Source: Thermomicrobium sp. CFH 73360
GTDB lineage: Bacteria; Chloroflexota; Chloroflexia; Thermomicrobiales; Thermomicrobiaceae
NCBI RefSeq assembly: GCF_023806465.1
Contig: NZ_JAMSLS010000001.1
Location: 62,001-126,000, forward strand
DNA length: 64,000 nucleotides
Direction: 5' to 3'
Positions 29,459 through 33,131 of this stretch are shown here, in pieces. Positions within the stretch are counted from its first letter, which is position 1. Every line of letters begins with the position of its first letter. Made by a program: the position numbers and the translations under genes. The notes under the pieces are model-generated. The model did no database searches, had not been told where the DNA came from, and saw only the letters and a program-made list of their open reading frames with translations.

Positions 29459-29866
29459 ATGACGACGACGCAACGCGCAACAACCACGCTCACACTGTTG
29501 GCAGTTCTGGCGACAGGCCTCGGACTTCTCCTCTTCCCAACCGTCTGCACTTGCGGTGCGGATTTTCCTCACCCACACGCCCTCTTCGAACTTCCCGGTC
29601 ATCATCATGGGCCACTGCGCTCGCAAACAACGTACGATCCACAAGACGTAAACCTCCTCGCGCTGGGTGGTAACCCCATCCTCACGCTGACCATTGCGGT
29701 TCTCCCCATTCTCATTCACCTGCCTCGGGGTGACGGTCGTACACCGTGTGCTGACCACTCACGCCCCGCGCCATTCGATCGACAGCACGAACCTGATTCG
29801 CCTCCTCCGCGCAAGCTGGATGATCCGTCTGCCGTGGCGTTTTGGCAATCTTTCGGAGGAGGTACC
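29459..29866 (+). CDS. upstream in-frame ORF (His-rich, membrane-anchored), possibly the N-terminal part of the YtkA gene
   Basis: From the ATG at 29459 (AGGA six bases upstream) the frame encodes a hydrophobic N-terminus (TLLAVLATGLGLLLFP), VCTCGADFPHPHALFELPGHHHGP with a CTC motif and His cluster, a second hydrophobic stretch (NPILTLTIAVLPILIHLP) and then a Pro/Asp-rich linker that runs, with no stop codon, into the ATG of the YtkA lipoprotein at 29867. The CTC and HHH features would suit copper or haem handling, but the family is not recognised. Either a real upstream protein fused in frame or a chance-open extension. Confidence 0.4.
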
Positions 29867-30340
29867 ATGTCGGTTATCCGCCTTCTCCTCTCGGTTCTCC
29901 TGCTGGTCGTCCTGGCCAGCAGTCTGGCCGCCTGCCAACGTGGCCAACGAAGCTCCGAGGTCATGGTTGACATCGTGTCGGTCGAGCCATCACCACCCCA
30001 AGTCGGTCCCGCCGAACTCCACCTGCGGCTCCGTGATGAACGCGGGCAGACTCTTGCTGGTCTTGGCTCCGTTGAGGTCGAAGGCACGATGTCCCACGCT
30101 GGAATGAAGCCGGTGATCGTGCAAGCCTCCGAGGAAGGTGATGGAGTCTACCGGACAGAAAACTTCGAGTTCACCATGGCCGGAGACTGGATCATCATCG
30201 TCCGCGGAACAAGGAATGGACAAGCGTTCGAAGCCCGCACGACGATCTCAGGTGTTCGGTCAAGTAGCCAGTTGCCCGCCACTCCCGGTCATGACCATAG
30301 CCCCAGTGTAACCCCCTACACCGTAGGAGGTTCTCCATGA
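29867..30340 (+). CDS. YtkA-like lipoprotein
   Basis: Exported lipoprotein with a YtkA-like immunoglobulin fold, a fold found in copper and cytochrome oxidase-associated proteins. The ATG at 29867 is preceded by GGAGGAGGT (29855-29863), the strongest site nearby. The signal peptide LLLSVLLLVVLASSLAAC gives a lipobox LAAC; the YtkA core LHLRLRDERGQTLAGL, MSHAGMKPVIVQ and YRTENFEFTMAGDWIIIV is typical (conserved Met/His in MSHAGM). 157 residues, ending in a His-rich tail PGHDHSP. Its stop overlaps the next ATG (ATGA). No stop codon separates it from the upstream ORF at 29459. Confidence 0.85.
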   Translation: MSVIRLLLSVLLLVVLASSLAACQRGQRSSEVMVDIVSVEPSPPQVGPAELHLRLRDERGQTLAGLGSVEVEGTMSHAGMKPVIVQASEEGDGVYRTENFEFTMAGDWIIIVRGTRNGQAFEARTTISGVRSSSQLPATPGHDHSPSVTPYTVGGSP

Positions 30341-31788
30341 CCGCCCAGAAAGCGCTTAGACACCGTACCATCGGATCATGGAGCGATCTGCAACACTGGC
30401 CGATTCTCGGCCCGTGGCTCCGCTGGCGACACGCCCGAACGAGCGCGCAGGCTGTACTGCTGTTTCTTGCTCTGCTTGTCCTTTATGATGGATTTTTCGG
30501 ACCACCCCTCGCCCCCAAGAATCTCGCCGGTGTCCTGCCGTGGGTACATTGGCGTGGGCTCGTGGTGCTGGCACTGTTACTGGCTGGAAACCTCTTCTGT
30601 TTCGCTTGTCCCTTTCTGCTGCCGCGGCGCCTCGCTCAGCGACTCTTCCGACCACGCCGTGCCTGGCCCCGTTGGCTTCAGGGGAAATGGCTGGCGCTCG
30701 TGCTTCTGGTAGTCTTCTTTTGGGCCTACGAGGTGTTTGACCTCTGGGCAAGCCCATGGCTGACTGCCTGGGTGATCATCACGTATTTTGTGGCCGCGTT
30801 TCTTATTGACGGGTTCTTCCGAGGTGCAGCGTTCTGCAAACATGTTTGCCCCATCGGCCAATTCAATTTTCTTGGTTCACTGGCTTCACCGTCTGCTGTC
30901 ACAATCCGTGACCGTGGAGTCTGCGCAAGCTGCGTGACGAAGGACTGTATTCGCGGACATGTTGATTCAGAAGGGAAACTGGTGCAGCGCGGCTGCGAGC
31001 TTGGCCTCTTCCAACCACGCAAGGTTGGGAACCTCGACTGCACGTTCTGCCTTGACTGTGTTCATGCCTGCCCATACCAGAACGTGACTGTACGGCTCCG
31101 CCTCCCGCTGGTGTCAGAACTCGATCCAGGTGTGAACCGGTCCGGTATTGGGCGCCTGAGCAATCGTCCGGACTGGATGCTTCTTGTCCTTGGACTCACC
31201 GGGCTTGGACTTCTCAACGCCTTCGGCATGGTAAGCCCCGTCTACCAGTTCTTAAGCTGGCTCAGTCAGACACTGCGTATTACCAGCGAGGGCGTTTTGC
31301 TCGCATTCATGTTCCTGGGCGGCATCGGTCTCCTGGCGGTTGCAGCGATGCTCGCCGGGCTCGTCACAAGCGTTCTCACAGGAGCACCCTCGCGGTGGTG
31401 GGGATTTCAGCGATTTGTGTATTCCCTTGCTCCGCTTGGCTTTGGAATGTGGACGGCTCACTACCTTTTTCACTTCTTGACCGGCGCGCTGACAGTCGTA
31501 CCCCTGACCCAAAACTTTGTCTTCGATGTGTTCGGATCTGCGCTCCTCGGTCAACCCGCTTGGCAGCTCGCCAGCCTACTCCCGATGAATACCGTTTACG
31601 AAGTGGTCGTCCTCACGCTTGCTGCGGGATTTTTCGGATCGGTCCTTTGGGCACTGGCGCTCGGCCGCCAACTCCAGCTTGGCTTTCTCGCGGTCCTTCC
31701 CTGGCTTGTCCTCCACATGGCACTCTTTCTCTTCGGTGTTTGGCTTCTCGGCCAGCCCATGGAGATGCGCGGGACACTACTAGGATGA
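30337..31788 (+). CDS. membrane-bound polyferredoxin (NosR/NapH/CcoG-like) 4Fe-4S protein
   Basis: Integral membrane electron carrier or assembly factor, 483 residues with several hydrophobic segments at both ends. Cysteine sets are FCFACPF, AAFCKHVCPIG, VCASCVTKDC and DCTFCLDCVHACPY; the last two look like [4Fe-4S] ligand sets in a ferredoxin domain between two membrane regions. This arrangement is shared with NosR/NapH and CcoG-type proteins. The start ATG overlaps the YtkA stop (ATGA). Redox partner unknown; next to SCO1 it could reduce Cu or maintain oxidase assembly factors. A full NosR has a FMN domain, which is absent. Confidence 0.83.
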   Translation: MTAQKALRHRTIGSWSDLQHWPILGPWLRWRHARTSAQAVLLFLALLVLYDGFFGPPLAPKNLAGVLPWVHWRGLVVLALLLAGNLFCFACPFLLPRRLAQRLFRPRRAWPRWLQGKWLALVLLVVFFWAYEVFDLWASPWLTAWVIITYFVAAFLIDGFFRGAAFCKHVCPIGQFNFLGSLASPSAVTIRDRGVCASCVTKDCIRGHVDSEGKLVQRGCELGLFQPRKVGNLDCTFCLDCVHACPYQNVTVRLRLPLVSELDPGVNRSGIGRLSNRPDWMLLVLGLTGLGLLNAFGMVSPVYQFLSWLSQTLRITSEGVLLAFMFLGGIGLLAVAAMLAGLVTSVLTGAPSRWWGFQRFVYSLAPLGFGMWTAHYLFHFLTGALTVVPLTQNFVFDVFGSALLGQPAWQLASLLPMNTVYEVVVLTLAAGFFGSVLWALALGRQLQLGFLAVLPWLVLHMALFLFGVWLLGQPMEMRGTLLG

Positions 31789-31907
31789 AGCGGAAACCAG
31801 AGTATGCAAAACAATCACCGCCAGCGGACTTGCAGACCCTGGAGGCTGGTGGACCTCCCCCACCAGCCCTTTCCCACCCACGGCTCGAAGCAGGGCCGGC
31901 AAGCTGA
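31785..31907 (+). CDS. 40-codon ORF coupled to the ferredoxin gene, possibly the 5' part of a frameshifted gene
   Basis: The ATG overlaps the stop of the preceding gene (ATGA), the common junction style in this operon. The product would be 40 residues: basic start MKRKPEYAKQ, then Pro-rich. It ends at TGA within the early part of the next gene, which is read in the +1 frame. This pattern fits a short coupled peptide or a frame break at the start of the next gene. Confidence 0.4.
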   Translation: MKRKPEYAKQSPPADLQTLEAGGPPPPALSHPRLEAGPAS

Positions 31908-32511
31908 CCGAGGCAGCTCCGTCTCCCGTACTCCAGTACCCAACAAGCGGACGCAGCCTCGATCTCTGGCAGTTATTGCGCTCGCACTCCTGTTCACTAT
32001 CCTTACGCCAGAGGCCGTCCTTGCGAATGGTGGGCAGGTGCGGGTGGCCAATTACCCCATCGGGCCATACGAGGTCACGGTCTTCACGAGCCCGGTGCCG
32101 CTTCAGACGGGAATTGTGGATGTGAGCGTTCTTCTGCAACGTCAGGAGGATAAGGCGATCGTCGAGAACGCCGAGATTCTGCTCACGATTACCCCCTTGA
32201 ATGGCGGTTCGCCCCAGAAGTATCCGGTAACGCGGGAGCAAGCGACGAATAAGCTCTACTACGCGGCCGAGTTTCCAGTCGATCAACCCGGGAGGTATCG
32301 AATCGAGTTGGCTATTCGGGCTCCCGGAGGAGCTGGCTCGGTTGCCTTCGACGTCACAGTGGAACGCGCAGAACCCACCCTGTGGGGGTCCTGGTGGCTG
32401 TGGGGTGCTATCACGATCACGGCGATCCCACTCCTTTGGTGGCTCTTTGGTGGACCAGGCCAACGTCCCCGAATCACCCGCGCAGCGCAACCGACGAGAG
32501 GGAAACGATAA
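31804..32511 (+). CDS. YtkA/FixH-like membrane-anchored protein, start uncertain
   Basis: Exported or membrane-anchored protein with a YtkA/FixH-like domain: hydrophobic segment SLAVIALALLFTILTPEAVLA (about residues 53-73), the exported domain with YEVTVFTSPVPLQTGIVDVSVLLQ and YYAAEFPVDQPGRYRIELAI, then a C-terminal hydrophobic helix WWLWGAITITAIPLLWWLF and a basic tail. About 235 residues from the ATG at 31804, which has a poor ribosome site and gives a 52-residue atypical N-tail. The real start may lie nearer the hydrophobic segment, or the true N-terminus may be the overlapping ORF at 31785 in another frame. Its stop overlaps the SCO start (TAATG). Confidence 0.7.
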   Translation: MQNNHRQRTCRPWRLVDLPHQPFPTHGSKQGRQADRGSSVSRTPVPNKRTQPRSLAVIALALLFTILTPEAVLANGGQVRVANYPIGPYEVTVFTSPVPLQTGIVDVSVLLQRQEDKAIVENAEILLTITPLNGGSPQKYPVTREQATNKLYYAAEFPVDQPGRYRIELAIRAPGGAGSVAFDVTVERAEPTLWGSWWLWGAITITAIPLLWWLFGGPGQRPRITRAAQPTRGKR

Positions 32512-33131
32512 TGCTACGACGCATCCGCAATACACTCTGGATCCTTGCATGTGTGGCGCTGGTTGGTACGGGAGTGCTGTATGCGGTCCGCTGGTATCAG
32601 GCACAGCGCGCCCTCGAATGGGCACTTGAGCTCGACGGTCGGCCTGCCCCTGACTTTACATTACTCAATCAGACTGGCCAGACAGTCCAATTCTCAAGTC
32701 TGGAAGGCCGCGCGTTCATTGTGACCTTCGTGTATACGAGTTGTCCGGACACCTGCCCTTTGACGCTGCGGAAATTGGTGGCCGCCTATCAGCGTCTTCC
32801 GCAGAACGTCTGCAATCAGGTGCAGATCATCGCTATCACGGTCGACCCGGAGCGAGATACACCCACGCGTGTGCAACAGTATCTCACGCTCAATGGGTTC
32901 GGGGATCACATTCTCTATCTCACCGGTGACCCACAGACTCTTGAGTCGGTATGGGCAGATTTCGCGATTGCCGTCGTGCGTCAACCTCTCGCTGATGGAC
33001 AGTACGAAGTTGCGCACACCACCGTGAGCTACATCCTCGATAGCGAACGGCGCATCCGCTACCTCATTCGCGACGAGGCGCTCGACCCCGAACGCCTCGC
33101 GGGGCTTCTCGAACGCCTCGTCGCGGGTTGA
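32511..33131 (+). CDS. SCO1/SenC copper-binding assembly protein
   Basis: Thioredoxin-fold protein that delivers copper to the CuA site of cytochrome oxidase or acts as a thiol redox factor. N-terminal membrane anchor (about residues 8-25) then the domain with GRPAPDFTLLNQTG, the metal-binding CxxxC at Cys78-Cys82 (TSCPDTCP) and the third ligand His168 (YEVAHTT). 206 residues. The start ATG overlaps the previous stop (TAATG). Last gene of the operon starting near 29459. The genuine Cu ligand set is complete, so a copper role is likely. Confidence 0.9.
   Translation: MLRRIRNTLWILACVALVGTGVLYAVRWYQAQRALEWALELDGRPAPDFTLLNQTGQTVQFSSLEGRAFIVTFVYTSCPDTCPLTLRKLVAAYQRLPQNVCNQVQIIAITVDPERDTPTRVQQYLTLNGFGDHILYLTGDPQTLESVWADFAIAVVRQPLADGQYEVAHTTVSYILDSERRIRYLIRDEALDPERLAGLLERLVAG

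Follow-up and report, generated by a model that had tools for sequence, protein, structure and literature searches.

What would a YtkA-type lipoprotein, a membrane polyferredoxin and a SCO1 protein do together where no oxidase gene adjoins them? The question is raised by positions 29459-33131 (forward strand) of a 64-kb stretch of DNA (the window) from Thermomicrobium sp. CFH 73360, whose genome of 3.06 Mb is 99.7% complete and which belongs to the Chloroflexota, named Thermomicrobiota by NCBI. Five genes follow one another there in the order ORF1, YtkA1, PFD, YtkA2 and SCO1, PFD being the polyferredoxin. The YtkA1-PFD-YtkA2-SCO1 operon with ORF1 is real, and it is more than a product of chance because PFD and the same neighbours are present in five of six congeners and PFD is found at 349 places of the species collection. 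The module probably serves the copper maturation of heme-copper oxidases, possibly also that of N2O reductase. On this reading it would be a system for oxidase copper maturation whose polyferredoxin is distinctive; it resembles known kinds of system, while the set itself differs from them.

The evidence for an oxidase role comes mainly from the relatives of PFD. A scan of 84,980 species genomes with two peptide patterns gave 349 relatives, the best 80 of which were analysed, and these loci belong to Chloroflexota, Gemmatimonadota, Acidobacteriota, Planctomycetota, Verrucomicrobiota, Rhodothermota/Balneolota and Bacteroidota. Neighbours within 6 kb of PFD were recognised by profiles built from the loci, with labels of our own and representatives checked against Pfam; those for COX1, COX2, COX3, COX4, cytochrome b, SCO and PCuAC were confirmed. 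The genes that recur around PFD are those of YtkA, SCO, COX, CtaG or M4/UnbV: YtkA2 is present in 78 of the 80 loci, YtkA1 in 70, M4 in 38, UnbV in 28, SCO in 25, COX1 in 10 and PCuAC in 6. The M4 context and the SCO/oxidase context are mutually exclusive. The 42 loci that lack M4 include 25 with SCO or PCuAC and 12 with oxidase-gene matches (L042, L045, L051, L053, L056, L066, L076, L077, L082, L086, L089 and L093), with either in 36 and both in L086. The home-made COX2 profile also catches cytochrome c domains, and not every match to it was checked individually; only L077 of the 12 oxidase-linked loci depends on this profile, through a partial COX2_TM match below cut-off. The COX2-profile match of L034 is a cytochrome c by Pfam, and this locus is counted for SCO and not for oxidase. 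The core lies directly after COX1-COX3-COX4 in L053 and L076, in the same direction and with a cytochrome c ORF next; the COX2-profile matches downstream of YtkA2 in these two loci are cytochrome c by Pfam. Neither SCO/PCuAC nor oxidase genes accompany L094 and L100, which are CtaG fusions, or L032, L067, L085 and L061, of which L032, L067 and L085 lie on short or cut contigs and L032 falls in the M4 clade.

PFD is most strongly tied to oxidase assembly by its fusion to Caa3_CtaG. Six loci (L056, L066, L082, L093, L094 and L100), five from Planctomycetota and one from Verrucomicrobiota, make up an entire clade and encode in one open frame a chain of 748-809 aa, in which Caa3_CtaG (PF09678) forms the N-terminal half and PFD the C-terminal half (E 2e-52 to 4e-60). 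Four of these six loci follow COX genes and cytochrome b. L100 is omitted from alignment A7. In the maximum-likelihood tree the window PFD falls among the SCO/COX types, and a single branch (100/99) separates the M4 type from the rest. The M4 loci (L080:6669-17410 and 37 others), which come from Acidobacteriota, Planctomycetota and Rhodothermota/Balneolota, have M4, a membrane protein without Pfam match, followed by YtkA1-PFD-YtkA2; UnbV_ASPIC/FG-GAP proteins are encoded in 28 of the 38 and an RnfD/NQR2-like protein in 23 (PF03116 E 7e-9 in L080). The Gemmatimonadota loci L029, L031, L033, L035, L071 and L101 carry a ZnuA-like gene, Pfam-checked in L071, divergent to SCO-YtkA1-PFD, and permease and ATPase cluster members are present as well in five of these six.

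PFD (30337-31788, +) is a membrane polyferredoxin of 483 aa, in which a C-terminal membrane domain of about 200 residues is added to a NapH/CcoG-like N-terminal half. Its differences from the closest relative by codon position (57, 39, 200) indicate coding constraint. Alignment A6 holds the window and 79 of the 80 loci, L030 being omitted (607 aa, with a long read-through start). All 80 sequences have C88 and C91 (CxxCP), C167 and C171 (CxxxCP) and C196, C199, C204, C220, C235, C238, C241 and C245, 12 Cys in total, together with M298, H375 and H379; M475 and M477 are found in 79 and H71 in 76. The Cys set C196-C245 is enough for two predicted [4Fe-4S] clusters. The window PFD matches no Pfam family at its cut-off. 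Fer4 models are matched at E<=0.001 by 7 and 3 of the 80 members, and Fer4_5 has no match in the own genome, so that PFD escapes this Pfam model at the threshold applied. TIGR02745 (CcoG) likewise has 0 matches in the own genome, PFD included, and matches none of the 80 aligned PFDs at E<=0.001. At the same threshold TIGR02163 (NapH) weakly matches all 80 (best E 3e-15), the window PFD scoring 35.3 bits against a cut-off of 213, and NF046105 (NosR) matches 15 (best E 1e-7), with 11.9 bits against 1000 for the window protein. Within PFD, hhalign matches E. coli NapH to residues 25-256 (Prob 97, E 6e-10) and, to residues 65-249 only, E. coli YccM (Prob 97, E 4e-11), a homologue of CcoG (PMC7558416), through which PFD shares the core of the CcoG family, CxxCP/CxxxCP-type motifs and two ferredoxin motifs. 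The initial label NosR/CcoG-like therefore suits the N-terminal half and not the C-terminal one, for which no Pfam match and no relative outside the family were found.

AlphaFold pLDDT is 90.1 for the whole PFD and 93.2 for residues 273-483. Foldseek gives 0 matches at E<=0.001 for the whole protein and for the C-terminal domain, and a PDB sequence search gives nothing convincing. The best VIA-align Z values, 7.3 for the whole PFD and 7.7 for the C-terminal domain, are to ABC-transporter helices and small helical proteins and are treated as background; the whole-PFD rows for cytochrome b561 (Z 4.6) and ba3 (Z 4.7) are left unused. The lack of a convincing match among solved structures is not evidence that the C-terminal fold is a new one. 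Lys and Arg cluster in the N-terminus, in the loop of residues 83-117 and in the ferredoxin loop, and these counts would place the three regions inside. By the helix order, M298 and the C-terminal PMEMRG would face outward, with HxxxH halfway through the membrane, and the His and Met residues may have a copper or heme role.

YtkA1 (29867-30340, +) is a CtaK-like lipoprotein and putative copper carrier, which matches PF13115 with 50.1 bits against a gathering score of 25.9 (E 4.4e-13), has a lipobox and the Met/His motif MxHxGMxP, and is the sole YtkA match of its genome. The lipobox Cys, M75, H77, M80 and P82 are present in 63 of 63 aligned sequences and M104 in 62. SCO1 (32511-33131, +) is an anchored SCO1/SenC protein, with 119 bits to PF02630 against 22.8 (E 1.6e-34), a CxxxC motif (78-82) and the distal H169; across loci C78 is conserved in 25 of 25 and C82 and H169 in 24 each. 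Codon-position differences from the closest relative indicate constraint on both YtkA1 (25, 18, 58) and SCO1 (19, 10, 49). YtkA2 (31804-32511, +), which is encoded between PFD and SCO1, has a signal peptide, a YtkA-like domain and a C-terminal anchor, and no match to FixH is listed for it at E<=1. The first ~55 codons of its ORF differ from the nearest relative without codon-position bias (22, 22, 26), which makes the start uncertain; the conserved part starts near 31970 and is under constraint (33, 15, 75). The acidobacterial-type YtkA2, such as L080:9338-10021, is predicted to begin, once mature, with or close to a His (AHxGPPFP), and the oxidase-type YtkA2 has ANGG. CopC has an N-terminal His copper site, and the N-terminal His of the acidobacterial type is possibly, by analogy, a copper site like that of CopC.

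The module is conserved in the genus. PFD is present in 11 of the 61 genomes of the relatives sample (the own genome and 60 relatives) and in five of the six congeners, the sixth being only 54% complete, and the five-gene order is identical in the five that bear it. The nearest named loci by PFD are those of Bacterium HR28 (82% identical) and of an uncultured Thermomicrobium (78%). Genome G007 has an SCO-like protein, SCO and PCuAC directly upstream of YtkA1-PFD-YtkA2, and the same three are encoded together at another locus of the own genome, where the SCO-like protein scores below cut-off; because they are joined in G007, the two copper loci of the own genome look like parts of one pathway.

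Possible targets are encoded on other contigs, where four COX1 proteins, one nosZ and all COX1 and COX2 matches of the genome are found. CuA motifs (C-x3-C-x3-H-x2-M) occur in four COX2 proteins and in NosZ, and two separate Caa3_CtaG genes (PF09678) lie beside two of the oxidases. The phylum sample of 201 genomes has 20 with strong PFD, or 23 with the weak ones included. The weak-PFD genomes G063, G074 and G080, all three with COX2 and without nosZ, are counted among the 181 others; their distant PFD-like proteins (E about 1e-61, with an internal TAA in the best match of two) are possibly a second subfamily. All 20 strong-PFD genomes have COX2, as do 142 of the 181 others (Fisher p 0.016, by tests that ignore kinship), and all 11 PFD genomes of the relatives sample have a COX2-family match. 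These data fit service to CuA-bearing enzymes generally, oxidases first. The initial annotation had suggested a stand-alone copper delivery or reductase system, or one for a distant copper enzyme such as caa3 oxidase or N2O reductase. The second proposal fits best, in view of the oxidase linkage and CtaG fusion in relatives and of the four CuA oxidases and one NosZ encoded elsewhere in the genome; the stand-alone state is not general in the family, since relatives adjoin oxidase genes.

We infer iron-sulfur and copper binding, the direction of electrons, the topology, the reductase activity and the target enzyme of the following scheme. The CtaK-like lipoprotein YtkA1 would use its Met/His motif to bind copper on the outer side of the membrane. 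In PFD, two [4Fe-4S] clusters on the cytoplasmic side and the CxxCP/CxxxCP pair at the membrane would pass electrons outward to the C-terminal His/Met site, and PFD would reduce Cu(II) to Cu(I) or keep the thiols of apo-CuA or Sco reduced. The anchored YtkA2, encoded beside PFD as CcoH is beside CcoG, would receive or position copper, and SCO1 would insert it into the CuA site of subunit II, CuB being possible given the CtaG fusions. More tentatively, and with some doubt on our part, PFD could represent a new transmembrane metal-handling class, in which a ferredoxin half that faces the cytoplasm feeds electrons to a membrane domain not described before, whose invariant HxxxH and Met site (M298, M475xM477) would reduce copper at the outer face and perhaps conduct it. 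Such a class would extend over at least six phyla; depending on the lineage it would act in CuA/CuB maturation, be fused to CtaG or, in Acidobacteriota and Planctomycetota, have been put to another use with M4/UnbV/RnfD-like genes.

Several points weigh against assigning the module to oxidases. YtkA2 fails the gathering score of its family (PF13115 16.2 bits against 25.9, E 0.017), and in G005, which is 62% complete, the SCO of the locus is broken or diverged and has no PF02630 match. The oriented copy of that locus (L016, 4490-5235) has an SCO frame without recognisable CxxxC, for which an assembly error is possible. Oxidase linkage is found in relatives only, in 12 of the 42 non-M4 loci (one of them weak) and the six CtaG fusions, and nowhere in the window genus. 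SCO, PCuAC, COX1-3 and cytochrome b are present in 0 of 38 M4 loci within the locus DNA examined, and the core can serve something else, since 38 of the 80 loci carry M4, on one side of a branch. The co-occurrence with COX2 is weak because most genomes have COX2 (162 of 201 in the phylum sample, 57 of 61 in the relatives sample). The gene nosZ, moreover, is present in 7 of 20 strong-PFD genomes of the phylum sample against 6 of 181 others (p 4e-5), and G028 (96% complete) has PFD and its sole COX2 match in NosZ.

The last two observations would suit a module for N2O reductase maturation, with PFD being NosR-like and YtkA1 and SCO1 NosL-like, in service of the CuA and CuZ of NosZ. The own genome does have nosZ, which occurs in 8 of 11 PFD genomes and in 15 of the 50 relatives that lack PFD (p 0.014), and the NosR model is weakly matched by the 15 PFDs mentioned above. 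We regard this explanation as quite unlikely, for nosZ is lacking in 13 of the 20 PFD genomes of the phylum sample, so that PFD is not nosZ-dedicated and a dedicated N2O reductase role is rejected. It is also lacking in 3 of the 11 PFD genomes of the relatives sample (G009, G015 and G025), where 15 of 23 nosZ genomes in turn lack PFD. The enrichment is partly due to the window genus, outside which it falls to 3 of 16 against 6 of 181 (p 0.028, kinship uncorrected), and adjacency and fusion in relatives involve oxidase genes.

General periplasmic copper homeostasis or detoxification, with PFD as a cupric reductase or copper transporter that serves no single enzyme, is unlikely in our judgement. 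It agrees with the copper tolerance promoted by CcoG overproduction (PMC7558416), with the ZnuA-like metal transporter gene divergent to the module in Gemmatimonadota and with the M4-type loci, whose examined DNA has no oxidase genes, and it is opposed by the linkage to SCO, PCuAC or oxidase genes in 36 of 42 non-M4 loci and by the CtaG fusion. That PFD is instead an electron-transfer subunit, as the NapH/NosR-like part of a quinol dehydrogenase, of a periplasmic respiratory enzyme, with the copper proteins as bystanders, seems very improbable: the weak NapH match of all 80 aligned PFDs and the RnfD/NQR2-like protein of 23 M4-type loci point that way, whereas the constant partners are YtkA1 (70 of 80) and YtkA2 (78 of 80) and no single reductase, and the invariant His and Met of the C-terminal domain and the CtaG fusion stand against it.

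An oxidase maturation module of this kind can be compared with several known systems. CtaK, a YtkA lipoprotein of Bacillus subtilis, is a postulated partner of Sco at the CuA of caa3 (PMC13344008, PMC9145763), and CcoG, encoded beside cbb3, is a Cu(II) reductase that uses two [4Fe-4S] clusters (PMC7558416). By analogy, the module looks like the CtaK/Sco and CcoG ideas joined in one operon. It resembles ccoGHIS (fixGHIS) in its gene pair, a membrane polyferredoxin with a small anchored protein encoded after it, in the tie to an oxidase and in the FeS clusters proposed as Cu(II) reductant. It differs in that PFD has no TIGR02745 match, in that the C-terminal membrane domain replaces the periplasmic Ig-like domain of CcoG (PMC7558416), and in that the linkage seen among relatives of PFD is with SCO and with COX operons that include a CuA subunit II. 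YtkA1 and SCO1 are like the CtaK and Sco of B. subtilis caa3, a YtkA-family lipoprotein with conserved His and Met being common to both (PMC13344008, PMC9145763), but PMC13344008 names ferredoxin 0 times and reports no CcoG homologue in Firmicutes. NapH/MauN proteins resemble the N-terminal half of PFD, but NapH stops where its C-terminal half starts. The Sco/PCuAC pathway of CuA shares SCO1, and SCO and PCuAC are present elsewhere in the genome; the window operon differs in lacking PCuAC, whose place YtkA1 may take, as is said of CtaK in Bacillus (PMC9145763). Caa3_CtaG, the fusion partner in six loci, lies outside the window operon, and is only tentatively a CuB factor in a review which expects more oxidase assembly proteins (PMC9145763). 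The Chloroflexus genome paper describes SCO1 with COX I-IV in the ACIII operon, and neither YtkA nor a polyferredoxin is named in the accessible text (PMC3150298). The YtkA-polyferredoxin-SCO1 gene set was not found in the published literature searched, whose coverage leaves out most subscription journals.

The operon begins with ORF1 (29459-29866, +), which encodes a small His/Cys-rich membrane-anchored protein seen in the genus only, in these data, and without Pfam or NCBIfam match at E<=1. C30, C32, H38, H40, H48 and H50 are common to its six aligned sequences, and differences from the closest relative show coding bias in the first 50 codons (6, 3, 16) and little codon-position bias in the remainder (21, 18, 30). 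ORF1 and YtkA1 form a single open frame of 293 codons (29459-30340), with no stop between them. This fused frame is itself real, and among the six congeneric loci read it is confined to the window genome, ORF1 being separate or out of frame relative to YtkA1 in the other five. YtkA1 is preceded by its own ribosome-site-like GGAGGAGG, ahead of the ATG at 29867; this site and the separate ORF1 of congeners led to rejection of a fusion as functional protein. YtkA1 and PFD overlap by ATGA (30337-30340) and YtkA2 and SCO1 by TAATG (32509-32513), as initially annotated, and the junction of ORF1 and YtkA1 is no such overlap. The earlier count of five or six genes is taken here as five, because the 40-codon ORF at 31785-31907, which by eye is not conserved among the relatives' sequences compared, is probably not a gene; a six-gene operon is rejected on that ground. 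The identity and order of the YtkA lipoprotein, the polyferredoxin, the second YtkA-like anchored protein and SCO1 stand as first described, as does the absence of an adjacent oxidase gene: an Asp/Glu racemase gene lies upstream and a convergent class-III aminotransferase gene downstream. A promoter and terminator scan gave signals no better than the shuffle level.

The module offers a specific candidate for the copper-reducing step of oxidase assembly in several phyla. What would surprise a specialist is the C-terminal domain of PFD, together with the variant that has M4/UnbV/RnfD-like genes. The CtaG-PFD fusion makes the link testable, since one chain would join copper reduction and oxidase assembly.

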